Shown in pieces: positions 3,640-17,530 of a DNA stretch of 37,526 nucleotides; position 1 is the first letter of the stretch, and each line of letters opens with the position of its first letter. A model generated the notes under the pieces. It saw only the letters and a program-made list of their open reading frames with translations. It made no database searches and was not told the DNA's origin. Source of the stretch: Candidatus Thiosymbion oneisti (GTDB taxonomy: Bacteria > Pseudomonadota > Gammaproteobacteria > Chromatiales > Chromatiaceae); the NCBI RefSeq assembly GCF_900092655.1, contig NZ_FLUY01000088.1, positions 1 to 37,526 of the forward strand, written 5' to 3'. Made by a program: the position numbers and the translations under genes.

Positions 3640-5033
3640 GGCCGGTCGCCGATCGCTGCCAGGGTGCTGCGGATATGTCCCCGTACCGCCTCCTCCGTGG
3701 CATCCAGCAAGACGCAGCGGGTCTCTTTCTCCAGCAGTTCGCGCAGACAGGGTGGTGGGGGCGCCTGGATACCGATGGCCTGGTACACCGCGTCGTTGAA
3801 CTTGGCCGGGTGCGCCGTGGCCAGGCAGACCATATCGGCACGGTGCCGGGCGGCCTGTACGCCAACGGCGGTGTGGGGATCCAGGATGTAACCGTCGTGC
3901 TCGTAGGTCTCCCGGATTTGGTCTAGGATTTGGGTGTCGCCGACGGCCACGGCATCGAAATCACTGGCCAGGGTCACCCGCTGCTCCGCCGTTACCTGCA
4001 TGTACCCGGTACGGTCCAACGCTGAAAGCAGGGTTCGTACTGCCGCCGGGTCTTCACCCACGAGAAAATACAGGTAGCGCTCGAAATTGGAGGCGATCTG
4101 GATGTCCATGGCCGGGCTCAAGGTCGGATGGACCTCGCCCGCCGCGTAGGGACCGCCGGTAACGAACCGGGTCAGGATGTCATTACGGTTGGTGGCGATG
4201 AGCAGCCGGTCTACCGGCAACCCCATGCGCTTGGCCAGGTAGCCGGCGAAGATGTCGCCGAAGTTTCCGGTGGGGACCGCAAAGCTGATCCGGAATCCGG
4301 GATCGCCTCGACTCATCCTACCCCAGGCGTAGAAGTAGTAGACGATCTGGGCCAGGATGCGGGCCCAGTTGATGGAGTTGATCGCGCCCAGGTGGTATTG
4401 CTGCTTGAAGTGTAGATCGTTGAACAGGCCTTTGACGATGCGTTGGCCGTCATCGAAGGTACCGCGGATGGCGATGTTGTGGACGTTTGCATCCAACACC
4501 GTGGTCATCTGCCGTTCTTGGATCGGCGAGACCCGGCCCGCGGGATGCAGAATGAAGATCCGGATCCGGTCCTTGCCACGTACCCCGGCGATGGCCGCCG
4601 AACCTGTATCCCCCGAAGTCGCCCCCAGGATGTTCAGCCGCCCACCGTCGCGTGCGAGCAGGTACGCGAAGACATTCCCGAGAAATTGCAGCGCCACGTC
4701 CTTGAAGGCCGCCGTGGGACCGTGGAAAAGCTCCAGGACGCGTTGCCCGCCGACCTGCACCAGCGGCGTTATTTCCTGGTGGGAGAAGGTCGCATAGGAG
4801 CGGTCAATCAGCGCGACCAGATCGGCGCGCGGGATGGCGTCGCCAACGAAGGGAAGCATGAGCTCCACCGCCAGGTCCCGTAAGCCTAAGTCGGACCAGT
4901 CGCGGAGTTCAGCGGGACCGACCTGGGGCACCGTCGCGGGCAGAAGCAACCCGCCGTCGGTGCCGAGGCCCATCATCACGGCTGCGGAGAAACCGACAGG
5001 CTCAACCCCACCGCGGGTACTGAGATATTGCAT
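3636..5033 (-). CDS. thrC: Threonine synthase
   Basis: This 465-aa PLP enzyme converts O-phosphohomoserine to threonine in the cytoplasm. It starts MQYLSTRGGVEPVGFSAAVM, the usual N-terminus of the longer (gammaproteobacterial/fungal) threonine synthases. The PLP lysine is Lys111 in FHGPTAAFKDVALQFLG, followed by the phosphate-binding GATSGDTGSAAI loop. Full length for the family. It is the first gene of a pair with cimA, overlapping it by 4 bases. Both products feed branched-chain synthesis: threonine can give 2-oxobutyrate, and citramalate gives the same compound. No clear promoter was found in the repeat-rich region upstream. Confidence 0.95.
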   Translation of the reverse strand: MQYLSTRGGVEPVGFSAAVMMGLGTDGGLLLPATVPQVGPAELRDWSDLGLRDLAVELMLPFVGDAIPRADLVALIDRSYATFSHQEITPLVQVGGQRVLELFHGPTAAFKDVALQFLGNVFAYLLARDGGRLNILGATSGDTGSAAIAGVRGKDRIRIFILHPAGRVSPIQERQMTTVLDANVHNIAIRGTFDDGQRIVKGLFNDLHFKQQYHLGAINSINWARILAQIVYYFYAWGRMSRGDPGFRISFAVPTGNFGDIFAGYLAKRMGLPVDRLLIATNRNDILTRFVTGGPYAAGEVHPTLSPAMDIQIASNFERYLYFLVGEDPAAVRTLLSALDRTGYMQVTAEQRVTLASDFDAVAVGDTQILDQIRETYEHDGYILDPHTAVGVQAARHRADMVCLATAHPAKFNDAVYQAIGIQAPPPPCLRELLEKETRCVLLDATEEAVRGHIRSTLAAIGDRP

Positions 5034-11597: not shown

Positions 11598-12510
11598 GAC
11601 TGGTCTCTAGGATGCGCCAAACCAGGGCATCGAAATCCAGCCCATGGGCCTGGGCGGCCATGGGTACCAGACTGTGGTCGGTCATGCCGGGCACGGTGTT
11701 CACCTCCAGCAGGTACGGCTGCCCACCGCCGTCGAGCATAAAATCCACCCGCCCCCAGCCGGCGGCGCCGACCGTATCGAAGGCATCCAGGCACATGGTC
11801 TTAAGGCATGACTCCGACTCGGCATCCAGGCCGCAGGGGCACAGGTAACGGGTGGTATCGGCAAGATATTTGGCCTCATAGTCGTAGAAGGCACGCGGCG
11901 TCTCCAGGCGGATCAGAGGCAGGGCCTCGCCGTTCAGGACGGCGCAGGTATATTCGGGACCCTTGATCCAGCGTTCGGCAAGGACCAGGGCATCGTACTG
12001 CGCCGCTGCGCGCCAGGCCTTGACCAGCGTCTCGGGATCGTCCGCCCGTGCCATCCCGAGGCTGGAGCCCTCACGGGCCGGCTTGATCATGAGGGGGAAA
12101 CCCAGGGCCCCTGCCTGCGCCAGGTCCGCTTCCTGCCGCAATAATGCGAAGTCCGCGGTCGGCAGACCACAACCCTGCCACAAGCGCTTGCAACGGTATT
12201 TATCCATCCCTAAGGCCGAGCCTAACACCCCCGAGCCCGTGTAGGCTAACCCAATGGTCTCGAGCGCACCCTGGATCTGTCCATCCTCGCCGCCGCGACC
12301 GTGGAGGATGATAAACGCCCGCGCAAATCCACCGCTACCTAGCTGCTCCAAGGCACCGGTCTGCGCCGGGTCCAGTCCATAGGCGTCCACCCCTTGACGT
12401 ACCAAGGCCGTCAACACGGCACCACCACTCTTGAGGGAGATCTCACGTTCGGCCGACTGTCCGCCCAGGAGCACGGCCACCTTGCCGAACTCGTCCGCCT
12501 GCGAGGTCAT
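11575..12510 (-). CDS. ddlB: D-alanine--D-alanine ligase
   Basis: An ATP-grasp ligase that makes the D-Ala-D-Ala dipeptide for MurF. The ATG at 12508-12510 (MTSQADEFGKVAVLLGGQSA) overlaps the murB stop as ATGA and gives 311 aa, the family size; the longer open frame upstream is murB in another phase. Visible landmarks are GGQSAEREISLKSG, HGRGGEDGQIQGALE, MIKPAREGSSLGM and the final VNTVPGMTDHSLVP. The murC-murB-ddlB-ftsQ-ftsA-ftsZ order is standard. Confidence 0.96.
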   Translation of the reverse strand: MTSQADEFGKVAVLLGGQSAEREISLKSGGAVLTALVRQGVDAYGLDPAQTGALEQLGSGGFARAFIILHGRGGEDGQIQGALETIGLAYTGSGVLGSALGMDKYRCKRLWQGCGLPTADFALLRQEADLAQAGALGFPLMIKPAREGSSLGMARADDPETLVKAWRAAAQYDALVLAERWIKGPEYTCAVLNGEALPLIRLETPRAFYDYEAKYLADTTRYLCPCGLDAESESCLKTMCLDAFDTVGAAGWGRVDFMLDGGGQPYLLEVNTVPGMTDHSLVPMAAQAHGLDFDALVWRILETSLGETSLE

Positions 12511-13415
12511 GACCCCCAACCCCCGACCCGACACACCTCGGGCGTCAGGCGCACACCGCTGGTACGCGCCACCTCTGACTGTACTCGTTCGATGAGTCGG
12601 ATGATGTCCCACGCGCTGGCGGTCCCCATGTTGACGATGAAGTTCGCATGCTTTTCCGATACTTGCGCACCGCCCACACACAATCCTTTCAGACCTGCCG
12701 CCTCGATGAGCCGTGCGGCATGGTCGCCGGGAGGATTCCGGAACACCGAGCCGCAGCTCGGAAGCCCGATCGGTTGAGCATGTCCCCGCCGCTCGAGTAG
12801 ATCATGGATGCGCTCCAGGCTGGCCGCGGCATCCCCCGGCTCCAGCGCCAGCTCCGCCCCCAAAAACCACTCGCCCGGCGGACCCTGGACCCGGCGGTAA
12901 CCGATGCGGAAGTCCTTCGGCAGACGTTCACGCAGCTCGCCCCGGCGGTCGATGGTGAGCACGCGCCCGACCCGGTCCCAAGTCTCTCCCCCATAGGCAC
13001 CGGCATTCATGGCCAGGGCGCCGCCCATGGTGCCGGGGATCCCGGCCAGGAACTCCACCCCGGTGAGTCCGAGCCTGGCAGCGAAGCGCGCCACCTTGGC
13101 GCAGGAGACCCCGGACTCGGTCCGGATCCCACGCTCCCCGACACGCCTCAAGACACTCAAGCAACCCTGGGTCTGGATCACGGTACCGGCAAAACCCGCG
13201 TCGCTCACCAGCAGGTTGCTGCCCAGCCCGAGCCAGAACACCGGCTCGGTCGGATCCAGGCCACGCAGAAAGGCCGCCAGATCGGCGGCATCCGCTGGCC
13301 GGAAAAACCGGCGTGCCGGTCCCCCCACTCGCCAGCTGGTGTGACGGGCCAGCGGCTCGTCTACGCGCAGCTCGCCGCGGAGGGGTAATGAGGCTTTGGC
13401 CGGGTCGCTATTCAT
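12507..13415 (-). CDS. murB: UDP-N-acetylenolpyruvoylglucosamine reductase
   Basis: A FAD enzyme that reduces enolpyruvyl-UDP-GlcNAc to UDP-MurNAc. The start ATG 13413-13415 (MNSDPAKASLPLRGELRVDE) gives 302 aa. The frame is open further upstream, but that part is the GAACCACGG palindrome and is not MurB. FAD-binding blocks WLGLGSNLLVSDAGF and GTMGGALAMNAGAYGGE, the catalytic SCGSVFRNPPGDH and the Glu in AQVSEKHANFIVN are present (type I MurB). No good ribosome site precedes it. Instead its ATG overlaps the stop of the CopG-like ORF upstream (ATGA), so its translation may now depend on that ORF. Confidence 0.95.
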   Translation of the reverse strand: MNSDPAKASLPLRGELRVDEPLARHTSWRVGGPARRFFRPADAADLAAFLRGLDPTEPVFWLGLGSNLLVSDAGFAGTVIQTQGCLSVLRRVGERGIRTESGVSCAKVARFAARLGLTGVEFLAGIPGTMGGALAMNAGAYGGETWDRVGRVLTIDRRGELRERLPKDFRIGYRRVQGPPGEWFLGAELALEPGDAAASLERIHDLLERRGHAQPIGLPSCGSVFRNPPGDHAARLIEAAGLKGLCVGGAQVSEKHANFIVNMGTASAWDIIRLIERVQSEVARTSGVRLTPEVCRVGGWGS

Positions 13416-13645
13416 GGGTATTCTTTGGAACCACGGATGGACACGGATAAACACGAGTTGTGATCTGTGTTTATCCGTGTCCATCCGTGGTTCTTATCTG
13501 CTGGATAGTACCGGTGTTGGGACGATACATTCACCTGGAACCTTGCATCTGTTTGTTCTCCGAACTCCGTAGCATCATGGTCATCCCAAAATGCCCCGAT
13601 CTCTTGGTAGGTGCCGGCATTTGAAACTGGGGTTTTAGTTGGCAT
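13412..13645 (-). CDS. CopG-family antitoxin-like protein with altered tail
   Basis: This 77-aa reading frame begins MPTKTPVSNAGTYQEIGAFW and continues DDHDATEF to SSQHRYYPAD, the pattern of CopG/BrnA-type antitoxins that normally end shortly after the RYYP motif. The last 25-30 residues are encoded by the palindromic repeat at 13428-13493, so the native end was replaced when the repeat landed. Its ATG overlaps the end of a BrnT-like remnant, and its TGA overlaps the murB start. Whether it still binds DNA or a toxin is unknown. It is clearly foreign to the dcw cluster. Confidence 0.6.
   Translation of the reverse strand: MPTKTPVSNAGTYQEIGAFWDDHDATEFGEQTDARFQVNVSSQHRYYPADKNHGWTRINTDHNSCLSVSIRGSKEYP
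13428..13493. repeat. Perfect 27-bp inverted repeat (CCACGGATGG type)
   Basis: Arms 13428-13454 and 13467-13493 are perfect inverted copies with a 12-base loop; the core is ACCACGGATGGACACGGAT. A related copy starts at about 37494 and runs to the window end. This family of short repeats is scattered in many proteobacterial genomes. Here it lies directly upstream of murB and inside the antitoxin-like ORF. As RNA it would form a very strong hairpin. Confidence 0.9.
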
Positions 13646-13790
13646 ATCTACGCCTTTCTTTCTCTGACATGTCTTTGGCTGAAACGATAATAGCTCGTTT
13701 ATCCCGCGTATACACGAAGAATACGCTTAATATCGGTACTTCCTGTTTTTCATTCCCACCGAAGGTGAAAATCAAGATAAAGCAACCTGT
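13635..13790 (-). pseudogene. BrnT-like toxin, C-terminal remnant
   Basis: In the frame ending TAA at 13635-13637 one reads VPILSVFFVYTRDKRAIIVS then AKDMSEKERRRYAN, the typical end of BrnT-type toxins (VYT...IISAR...ERRRYE). The stop overlaps the ATG of the CopG-like ORF, the usual toxin-antitoxin layout. No start codon or N-terminal half exists: upstream the frame runs into the end of the ankyrin gene in another phase and closes at a TGA near 13798. The left half was apparently lost when the ankyrin module arrived. Confidence 0.5.
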
Positions 13791-14935
13791 TGGTTCTCAG
13801 GGGTGAGCACCGATAACAACTCCGGCTTGTCGTCCGGGACGCACTCATAAGGCAGGACGCCGCGCTTGCTAGCTAGATCGGTACGCGCGCCATATTTCAG
13901 GAGCAGACGGACGTTCTTCTCGTTCCCAAGACTAGCGGCATAGTGCAACAGGCTCCGACCACGAGGGCTGGAATGGTTCGGATCCGCGCCATGGGTCAAC
14001 AGGAACTCCGCGATCTCCGTGCAACCCCGCCCCACGGCATACCACAAAGGCGGCGCACCATTATGAGCTTTCGCGTCGATATGCCGATTCAGGGGAAGGA
14101 GTAAGCTGGCGATTTCCAGGGAACACCCGAAGGGAATCCAGTGCCAAACGGTGAAACCCTTACTGCCGACATGGAACGGATTGGCACCCCGTTCCAGCAG
14201 GAGCTTCACCATATCCAGGTCGCCTTCAGCGGCGGCCAGGAGTAACAGGCTATCGCCGTCGGCATCGGTCGTATTAACATCCGCCCCCCCGGCCAGAAAA
14301 TCTTCGACCTCTTTGACACGCCAATTGCTCACCGCATCGATCAGTCGCTCGGTATCTCCCAGTCCGTCTTCGGGGATGAGCTTCAGCAATAACTCCTCCT
14401 TATCGTCCGGGACGTATTGACAAGGCAGGGCACCGCGTTTGTCCTCTACATCAATCCGCGCACCATATTTCAGGAGTAGACGCACCCCTTTCTCATTCCC
14501 ACGAGCCGCCGCGTCATGCAATAGGGTCCGACCGTTATCGTCGGTGGAGTCCGGGTCCGCGCCATGGACCAACAGGAACTCCGCGACCTCCATGCAATCA
14601 TCCATCAGGGCGTACCCCAAAGGTGTTATGCCGTCGTAATCCTTCAAGTCGATATGTGGATTCAGGGGGAGCAGCAAACGGGCGATTTCCAGGGAACATC
14701 CATAGGCGGCCCAGTGCCAAACGACGAAGCCGTCACTCCCCACATGGAGCGGATCGGCTCCCCGCGCCAGCAGGAGCTTCACCATCTCCAGGTCGCCTTC
14801 ACCGGCGGCTAGGAGTAACAGGCTATCGCCGTCGGTATCGGTGGTATCGACGCTTGCCCCACGGGCCAGAAAGCCTCTTACTTCCTCGATACGCCCATTG
14901 TTCACCGCATCAATCAGTCGTTCGGTATCTTCCAC
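13772..14935 (-). CDS. Ankyrin-repeat protein, internally duplicated (candidate immunity protein)
   Basis: A 387-aa soluble protein made of two copies of one unit of about 191 residues (3-193 and 194-384), each starting DTERLIDAV and ending near PDDK-ELL. Each unit has about five ankyrin repeats, with blocks such as GDSLLLLAAGEGDLEMVKLL and NGRTLLHDAAARGNEKGVRL. No signal peptide or membrane segment is seen. The start is GTG 14933-14935, 21 bases after the stop of the 141-aa toxin candidate, so they are probably co-transcribed. Ankyrin proteins are known immunity proteins in polymorphic toxin loci. That role here is inference from position; a general binding protein is the alternative. Confidence 0.85.
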   Translation of the reverse strand: MEDTERLIDAVNNGRIEEVRGFLARGASVDTTDTDGDSLLLLAAGEGDLEMVKLLLARGADPLHVGSDGFVVWHWAAYGCSLEIARLLLPLNPHIDLKDYDGITPLGYALMDDCMEVAEFLLVHGADPDSTDDNGRTLLHDAAARGNEKGVRLLLKYGARIDVEDKRGALPCQYVPDDKEELLLKLIPEDGLGDTERLIDAVSNWRVKEVEDFLAGGADVNTTDADGDSLLLLAAAEGDLDMVKLLLERGANPFHVGSKGFTVWHWIPFGCSLEIASLLLPLNRHIDAKAHNGAPPLWYAVGRGCTEIAEFLLTHGADPNHSSPRGRSLLHYAASLGNEKNVRLLLKYGARTDLASKRGVLPYECVPDDKPELLSVLTPENQQVALS

Positions 14936-14956
14936 CTGGAATTGCCCTCTCTGGAA

Positions 14957-15382
14957 CTATTGTTCATAGTCTTCGTCGATCTGTTTTCTGGAGCGGTCCG
15001 ACTCCCCTTTCCTCTTCTTGTCATGGGCCTTATGAGTGGCATCTTTGCCTCCCCGCTTCTCTAATTTCTTTTTCCTCCAATCAACATATCTATCAGATGC
15101 ACGCTCGTTCTCCCTCTTTTCTTTGCGGGCTGCTTTTTCTCGCCGCGTTCGCTCCTTATTAGTCTCCCTTCGCTTTTCCTTTTCACAATGCACACATATA
15201 TCATTCTCTGGCCGCTCTTTGGACTCGCCTTCCGTTTGCTCGTCGATCTTTTCGGCGAGCACTGCCACGCCGGCCAGTCCCAATGCACCCCCGATTACAG
15301 CCACAGTGGCTTTTGCCGCCGCGGCGAGCGCCGCCGCGGCCTCCGGAACAAGGACAGCAAGGCCAATAGCCGGAGCCGGCAT
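14957..15382 (-). CDS. Candidate small polymorphic-type toxin, membrane N-terminus
   Basis: A 141-aa protein with a clear start: AGGAG six bases before the ATG at 15380-15382. Residues 1-45 are hydrophobic and Ala-rich (MPAPAIGLAVLVPEAAAALA), enough for one or two membrane segments. Residues 46-110 are highly charged with a CVHC motif at 63-66. The C-terminus has GGKDATHKAH followed by DRSRKQIDEDYE, a text I associate with toxin ends of secreted effectors (KAHD...PDR..QI.EDY). It sits between a 109-aa gene resembling T6SS-locus proteins and an ankyrin gene. I do not know an activity; the two His of the C-terminal block could be catalytic. Confidence 0.6.
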   Translation of the reverse strand: MPAPAIGLAVLVPEAAAALAAAAKATVAVIGGALGLAGVAVLAEKIDEQTEGESKERPENDICVHCEKEKRRETNKERTRREKAARKEKRENERASDRYVDWRKKKLEKRGGKDATHKAHDKKRKGESDRSRKQIDEDYEQ

Positions 15383-15420
15383 TATAATCTCCTTTTATTC
15401 AAAAATCAGTCATTCTCCTG

Positions 15421-15750
15421 TTATCCTTTCGTGTAGCGGAGTTGACGGACCAACATATCCAACTTCTGATCCATCGTATACTTCTCAAGATTCAGAAACT
15501 TCACCACTTCGGGAGATTCGAGCTTACCTTTGGTCGAAATATACAATAAAGCATATTGATGGTACGCCTTGATGGAATGCACGCCGAGCTTACTGGCCCT
15601 GTTACAGGCAACATAGATCATATATTTGAGATCGTTATCTCCGTATTGTGCTGAAAGCTCAGGAAAGCCGGATATGATCTTGTTATAGATGTTGTTTCTT
15701 AGAAATCTATTTGACAAACTGCTGTATTGTTGGCGTGATATTTGAAACAT
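15421..15750 (-). CDS. Small T6SS-locus-like protein, function unknown
   Basis: An AT-rich gene encoding 109 aa. The second of two ATGs (15748-15750, MFQISRQQYSSLSNRFLRNN) is chosen because GGAGG lies 6 bases before it and is too close to the first. The text (a short N-terminal strand, then FLRNNIYNKIISGFPELSAQ, a central ASKLGVHSIKAYHQYA and a hydrophobic ALLYIS) resembles small proteins often found next to PAAR/VgrG-linked effectors. That family has no established function; an adaptor or chaperone role is possible. It opens a three-gene set with the 141-aa candidate toxin (38-base gap) and the ankyrin gene. Confidence 0.6.
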   Translation of the reverse strand: MFQISRQQYSSLSNRFLRNNIYNKIISGFPELSAQYGDNDLKYMIYVACNRASKLGVHSIKAYHQYALLYISTKGKLESPEVVKFLNLEKYTMDQKLDMLVRQLRYTKG

Positions 15751-16001
15751 CGACATCCTCCTCTAATCCAATATCGCAAGCGTTCAGGCCGCTGCCGCTT
15801 TTGCAATCCATGGCACCGGCAGATTCCGGCAATCCCTGCCGGAATGACGAAGCGGGGTCTGAACGATTACTTTTTAATCTGTGAGAATCTGTGTCATCTG
15901 CGGATAGAAAGATAATGTAACCTTTTGCAACCGATTTGCGTTTATTCGCGTTCATTTGCGGACAAATCCTTCGGGAAAATTCTGTCGGCTCAATGTCATC
16001 G

Positions 16002-16098
16002 GTAGGATGCCCCGGCGAACGGCATCATCGATGCGGTTCGCGCGGGAGAGCGCGCACCGGCTGGCAAGCTCAGAATCACCGCGCTCACCGCATCCTAC
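16002..16098. repeat. GTAGGATGC-type hairpin repeat
   Basis: Arms GTAGGATGC (16002-16010) and GCATCCTAC (16090-16098) frame a GC-rich segment. The block is related in reverse to the GTAGGATG(T/C)GGTGAGCGTC units at about 29396 and 30332. The gap 15757-16105 also holds other dispersed units: CCGGCAATCCCTGCCGGAA near 15824 and TTTGCGTTTATTCGCGTTC near 15935. No gene is seen there. Confidence 0.6.
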
Positions 16099-16105
16099 GA
16101 GCTCA

Positions 16106-17530
16106 TCACTCATCACTCAAAAGCTCCGGCAACCGGCCCGCCAGGGCGCCGATATCGCCAGCCCCCATGGTCAGGACTAGGTCGCCGTCTTCGAGCAGGG
16201 TCCCCAGCATTCGGGGCACATCCTGTAAGTCGCGGGCGAACACCGGATCCACTTCGCCGCGGGCCCGGATCGCACGGCTCAGGGTGCGGCCGTCGGCGCC
16301 CGGCAGCGGCGATTCCCCCGCCGCATAGACCTCGCACAAGACGAGTACATCCGCATCCGACAGTATCTGCACGAAATCCTCGAATTGCTCCTGGGTGCGG
16401 GTGAAGCGGTGCGGCTGGAACACCAGCACCAGTCGCCGCCCCGGCCAACCACGGCGCGCCGCCTCGAGCGTGACCGCTACCTCCCGCGGGTGATGCCCGT
16501 AATCGTCCACTAAAATCAGCTCGCGACCGTTCCCCGCCTTGATCTCCCGGACAGCAAAGCGGCGGCCGATACCCTGGAAGTCGCGCAATGCGCGCTGGAT
16601 GGCTGTCTCCTCCACGCCCAGCTCCAGGGCCACCGTGATCGCGGCCAAGGCGTTGAGCACATTGTGACGCCCGGGCAGATTGAGCTCCACCCGGAGGGGT
16701 CCCTCCCGCCCCTCCCAATGCACGGAGAAAACCATACGCAGGCCTTGTTGGCAGATCTCCTCGGCTCGTATGTCCGCCTCCGCACGGGTGCCATAGGTAC
16801 GCACCGGACGTGGGATCATGGGCGCCAGGGCGCGGACCTCTTCATCGTCGATACACAAGACCGCCAACCCGTAGAAGGGCAGATGGTGCAGAAATTCCAT
16901 GAAGGTGTTGCGGAGGCGATCGAAGTCATTGTCGTAGGTGTGCATGTGGTCGGCGTCGACGTTCGTGAGCACCGCCAGCATAGGCTGCAGATAGAGGAAG
17001 GAGGCATCGCTCTCGTCGGCCTCGGCGATCAGGTACTGGCTCGTGCCCAATCGGGCGTTGGCGCGGGCACTGTTCAGGAGCCCACCGATCACAAAGGTCG
17101 GATCCAGCCCGCCTTCGGCCAGCACACTCGCAATCAGGCTGGTGGTCGTAGTCTTACCATGAGTTCCGGCGACCGCCACCCCATAGTAGAAACGCATGAG
17201 CTCGGCCAACATCTCGGCGCGGCGTACCACTGGGATCCGCTGCGCTCGGGCGGCGCACAGCTCCGGGTTGTCCGCGTTGATGGCGGTAGAGACCACCACC
17301 GCATCGGCCCCCTGTGCCTGCTCGGCCCGGTGTCCGATCCGGACCATCACGCCCAGGCCCTCCAGCCGCCGGGTTGCCTCACTCGCCTGTTGGTCGGAGC
17401 CGGAGACCCGATAGCCGAGGTTGGTCATGAGCTCGGCGATCCCACTCATGCCCGAACCCCCGATACCGACGAAATGCAGGTGGCGGATCCGCCCCATATT
17501 ATCGGCCCCGAAACGCATCGCCACGCTCAT
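16106..17530 (-). CDS. murC: UDP-N-acetylmuramate--L-alanine ligase
   Basis: Adds L-Ala to UDP-MurNAc. The ATG 17528-17530 ([20 protein letters not shown]) overlaps the murG stop as ATGA and gives 474 aa; a further in-frame ATG lies 4 codons on. The N-terminal Rossmann motif [16 protein letters not shown], the ATP loop [15 protein letters not shown] (about residues 110-125), the central [10 protein letters not shown] and the C-terminal QPHRFTRT are all intact. Downstream, about 350 bases of repeats separate it from the accessory module that now interrupts the usual murC-murB junction. Confidence 0.97.

Follow-up and report, generated by a model that had tools for sequence, protein, structure and literature searches.

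REP/REPIN and other stem-loop families are intergenic palindromes dispersed in dozens of copies, REP usually being 20–40 bp in length. The Rickettsia palindromic elements are mobile palindromes translated in frame within a protein. The enterobacterial RU repeats are likewise mobile palindromes read in frame as parts of proteins (PMC2759123). Mycobacterial interspersed repetitive units (MIRUs) are short dispersed repeats at start codons, where the ORF they bring ends in a −4 overlap (ATGA) with the gene start (PMC12548453). In phage f1, genes VII and IX also have a −4 overlap, with a long hairpin just upstream of IX, and translation of VII is needed (PMC12548453).

We analyzed a window of 37,526 nt (the whole stretch of DNA under study) from the genome of Candidatus Thiosymbion oneisti (G000), a draft assembly of 1,891 contigs. 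At murB of this window, as in phage f1, a −4 overlap is combined with a long hairpin ending just before the second start; in the phage, however, both genes have a function and their coupling has been tested, whereas at murB we infer the coupling and a remnant serves as the first ORF. As with MIRUs, a dispersed repeat is located at the start codon and an ORF ends in the ATGA overlap. MIRUs, however, carry their own ORF and habitually insert at start codons, whereas here the ORF start is provided by an antitoxin remnant and the element is palindromic. The repeat shares with REP/REPIN and similar families its dispersed, intergenic, palindromic nature and its dozens of copies but is longer (64 bp), with 30-bp arms of tandem decamers (ACACGGATNN). 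As in RU repeats and Rickettsia palindromic elements, a mobile palindrome forms part of a protein in frame; the host ORFs of those elements are mostly annotated genes, while here it is a decayed antitoxin. Finally, adjacent genes of BrnT (PF04365) and a CopG-type antitoxin were found in an intact relative (locus L149 of another genome of the family), whereas both genes are truncated in the window and form no functional pair.

The palindrome as a dispersed repeat

A perfect inverted repeat with 27-nt arms (100% identity) and a 12-nt loop was found at 13428-13454/13467-13493, where, as the initial annotation had claimed, it encodes the tail of the ORF preceding murB. The strong RNA hairpin proposed just before the murB start was also borne out: the RNA is predicted to fold with −58.5 kcal/mol (z = −9.6 relative to dinucleotide-shuffled sequences), and 12 nt lie between the end of the hairpin and the murB ATG. 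The palindrome had been taken for the antitoxin tail; this stands for the sequence, but the element itself is a wandering repeat that belongs to neither the antitoxin nor murB.

The repeat (13429..13492, AACCACGGATGGACACGGATAAACAC...GTGTTTATCCGTGTCCATCCGTGGTT) corresponds to the canonical 64-bp form: three decamers (AACCACGGAT GGACACGGAT AAACACGGAT) make up one arm, and their reverse complement follows after a loop of 4 nt. The number of decamers varies, some arms having fewer than three and others more. Its multi-copy nature had been overlooked. A 26-base arm pattern, searched with at most one mismatch, gave 82 matches in G000, 154 in G003 (WYCW01, 20 contigs; an ectosymbiont of Catanema belonging to the same genus), 42 in G002 (JAIZWN01, the congeneric ectosymbiont of Robbea hypermnestra) and 0 in G001. 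The pattern was present in 18 of the 194 genomes of the family, and exact arm matches were absent from every other of the 399 sampled genomes of the phylum. None of the 98 distinct copies sampled from G000 and G003 (43 full repeats and 55 single arms) was located inside a gene as predicted, roughly, by a simple codon-usage model. Because it is multi-copy and was never encountered within predicted genes, the palindrome, with its inverted-repeat structure and extragenic position, is judged from its sequence to be a REP/MITE-like dispersed element that came to lie in the antitoxin frame incidentally. A MIRU-like start-codon habit was not supported: only 5 of 78 element-to-start distances, measured on rough gene calls, were <25 nt.

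The hairpin gave only sub-threshold, mostly microRNA-type and meaningless matches in Rfam, nothing similar was found in plasmid records, and a literature search with the sequence strings returned no description of the repeat. A repeat family with decamer-built arms in Chromatiaceae symbionts is now described.

Related elements were also noted. A sister repeat of like build (CCGCAAATGAACGCGAATAAACGCAAAT) was found near the same genes in the window (15930-15965) and at L067:1965-2000 and 4290-4400; in G003, it adjoins the toxin–antitoxin remnant. In the G003 genome (L178, L190-L192), some arms carried additional decamers, and copies of the repeat also formed tandem arrays in which the spacer is conserved; this suggests slippage or tandem growth of repeat units. 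In G002 (L069:880-1050), another palindrome family (CCCACGCGGCGCGTGGGAACG) directly precedes the half-repeat at murB.

Decayed toxin–antitoxin pair and the probable order of events

The BrnT-type toxin remnant (13635..13727, minus strand) consists of about 30 C-terminal codons and the stop, the N-terminal part being absent. The initial annotation had assigned to it the C-terminal 40–50 residues; the BrnT-homologous stretch is shorter, 30–32 residues (13727-13638), and the other approximately 20 codons of the open frame matched neither G003 nor the intact relative. The remnant begins at the same base (AGCGTATTC) in the window and in G003, and the two are 94% identical in nucleotide sequence over 13727-13496. 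The following hybrid ORF (13412..13645, minus strand, 77 aa) comprises the N-terminus of a CopG-type antitoxin (residues 1–50), while its last 26 residues derive from the repeat and the leader of murB. The antitoxin ATG is preceded, within the toxin remnant, by an AAAGG-type Shine–Dalgarno (SD) sequence.

Comparison with the L149 pair upheld the recognition of a broken BrnT/CopG pair. The intact toxin homologue there matches BrnT_toxin PF04365 above the cut-off (39.9 bits), as expected of a BrnT toxin of ~90 aa, which the window lacks. Directly behind this complete toxin gene, L149 encodes an 87-aa antitoxin with a weak match to CopG_antitoxin PF12441 (25.0 bits; cut-off 28); the hybrid ORF reached 12.9 bits against the same cut-off. 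The window antitoxin keeps its first 50 of about 87 residues, exactly as annotated, with a 77% match over 48 residues, and residues 51–87, the C-terminal DNA-binding RHH/CopG half, are replaced by repeat-encoded sequence. Because only about 30 C-terminal toxin residues are left, the pair is classed as a remnant and not as a BrnT/CopG member. Selection on the hybrid ORF was considered and rejected: between G000 and G003, antitoxin codons 1–50 differ by five silent and five changing substitutions, one of the latter being a stop in G003, and therefore give no sign of constraint.

The ankyrin gene, the toxin–antitoxin remnant and murB follow each other in G003 in the same order as in the window, and the repeat is absent from this site. 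In the G003 antitoxin, codon 20 is an in-frame TAG stop, yet the 3′ half is kept, and about 240 bp separate the break point from murB. Since the same toxin truncation and a dead antitoxin occur in repeat-free G003, the toxin was probably truncated already in an ancestor, and the repeat probably joined a pair that was by then dead. In G002, the toxin–antitoxin remnant is absent, and a single repeat arm lies as far from murB as the repeat does in the window; the murB start is identical (ATGAATAG), and the leader matches that of the window gene (AAGAATGCCC). This places the repeat–murB junction probably before the G000/G002 split. The repeat–antitoxin junction, as we infer from these end states, would have arisen with the loss of about 240 bp. 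Given the repeat-free pair of G003 and the half-repeat of G002, the hybrid ORF would be a by-product of repeat insertion or recombination.

The surrounding region also deserves description. The murC–murB step of the dcw cluster is split in the window by about 2.7 kb (13416-16118), containing the ankyrin-repeat gene, ORFs of 141 and 111 aa and the toxin–antitoxin remnant. This split is common to G000 and G003; in G001, murC and murB are nearly adjacent. Blocks 15500-15899 and 13800-13899 have 96–100% identity to G003, against ~83–86% for murB/murC, and suggest a recent exchange of the segment holding them.

Initiation at murB and the question of coupling

The gene murB, encoding UDP-N-acetylmuramate dehydrogenase (12507..13415, minus strand, 302 aa; NF010480, 359.5 bits), was the single good match in the whole G000 genome. 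The stop TGA of the hybrid ORF (13414-13412) overlaps its ATG (13415-13413) on the same strand, forming the ATGA (13412..13415) typical of −4 coupled pairs; both this overlap and the lack of a good ribosome site were annotated correctly. The 12-nt leader between hairpin and ATG (13416..13427, minus strand) contains no SD, and the best SD duplex of murB (−2.2 kcal/mol) is random-like: random 17-mers of the window have a median of −2.5 kcal/mol, and 57% of them reach −2.2. Opening the region −20..+15 around the murB ATG was calculated to cost 21.4 kcal/mol versus 10.7–18.2 for seven other starts, several of which are approximate in position (the ddl start is two bases off), and 7.6 for the antitoxin ATG. 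No minus-strand promoter was found between the hybrid ORF and murB, the sole minus-strand match (14087) being at chance level.

The account we favor, and hold to be fairly probable, is that the repeat joined a dead antitoxin to murB and that a coupled route now supplies part of MurB. A copy of the genus-wide REP/MITE-like palindrome, probably mobilized in trans or spread by recombination, lies directly upstream of murB, and its far end is joined in this lineage to codon 50 of the antitoxin. The junction would have formed in a BrnT/CopG pair that no longer worked, removing the second part of the antitoxin together with an older leader of murB. By chance, the antitoxin frame is open through the repeat, meeting the TGA within the murB ATGA. 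Ribosomes that enter at the antitoxin start codon would unfold the hairpin on their way to this TGA, where they would terminate and could reinitiate on murB. Given the hairpin 12 nt away and the missing SD, −4 coupling of the two ORFs is plausible. The coupled route would probably account for part of MurB, the other source being initiation directly at the A-rich leader, which is unpaired and has no SD. The chance that coupling contributes appreciably to MurB is put at about one half; the dependence of murB on hybrid-ORF translation suggested in the initial annotation is possible, and strict dependence is rated lower.

The strongest competing explanation, which we regard as a serious though less probable one, is that ribosomes initiate murB directly on its leader, unpaired and lacking an SD, or at a second in-frame ATG at 13484 inside the palindrome (overlooked earlier), and that the hybrid ORF and ATGA are coincidental. 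Direct initiation is possible because the region −12..+15 is nearly unpaired beside the hairpin and needs only 2.8 kcal/mol to open; against this, the usual 30S footprint reaches about −20 and so includes the hairpin, which costs >20 kcal/mol to open, and no SD is present. The start at 13484 was rejected: its SD is weaker still (−0.5 kcal/mol), and the resulting N-terminal extension is not kept in G002. Coincidence, in turn, is cheap. At full repeats, an average of 1.3 of the 3 frames is open per strand, and an ORF with an upstream start runs through the repeat in 54% of full-repeat strand views (in 26%, 20 or more codons precede it). A frame reaching the murB ATGA is therefore cheap by chance, the TGA being supplied by murB itself. 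In the comparison with relatives called for in the initial annotation, G003 keeps the decayed pair without the repeat; murB of G002, which has the leader and no antitoxin, is equally SD-less with only half the hairpin, which counts against a need for coupling. On the other side, a 41-codon frame from an ATG happens to end at the same murB ATGA in G002 too.

It is improbable that murB has kept the repeat for a regulatory or mRNA-protecting role as a REP-like hairpin, for example against downstream decay, with the ORF irrelevant. The very stable fold, the location of repeats between genes, the occurrence of the repeat, whole or halved, at this position in two species and its copy before prlC would fit such a role; however, there is no sign that the full hairpin is retained, because it is absent from the G003 site and half gone in G002, and no intrinsic terminator or terminator-like U-run was found on the murB strand (one weak match was on the opposite strand). 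Least probable is an assembly artefact, in which two repeat copies between antitoxin and murB collapsed into one and the intervening sequence was dropped: the G000 contigs are short and many end in the repeat, but the order ankyrin gene–toxin–antitoxin remnant–murB is identical in the 20-contig G003 assembly, and the right-hand junction recurs in G002.

The repeat was found before one more housekeeping gene. In G000, 19 nt separate its end from the start of prlC (L003:1470-1580, G000:C782; identified as oligopeptidase A by eye from the sequence), whose SD is −0.2 kcal/mol, versus −5.9 in G003 and −7.3 in G002, where the orthologues have no repeat at this place. Two genes, murB and prlC, with the repeat and no SD are not a rule. 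It is unlikely, in our estimate, that in Ca. Thiosymbion the dispersed palindrome replaces the SD leaders of housekeeping genes and makes their translation depend on an upstream frame through the hairpin, so that the start codon of a dead antitoxin keeps an essential gene alive.

If the coupling favored here is real, a selfish palindrome has deprived an essential gene of its own ribosome site, and the start codon of a pseudogene has taken over control and would be kept for that reason alone. Even without coupling, the locus shows precisely how a dispersed palindrome can capture the end of a gene in decay, and congeners present both the repeat-free and the half-repeat state.
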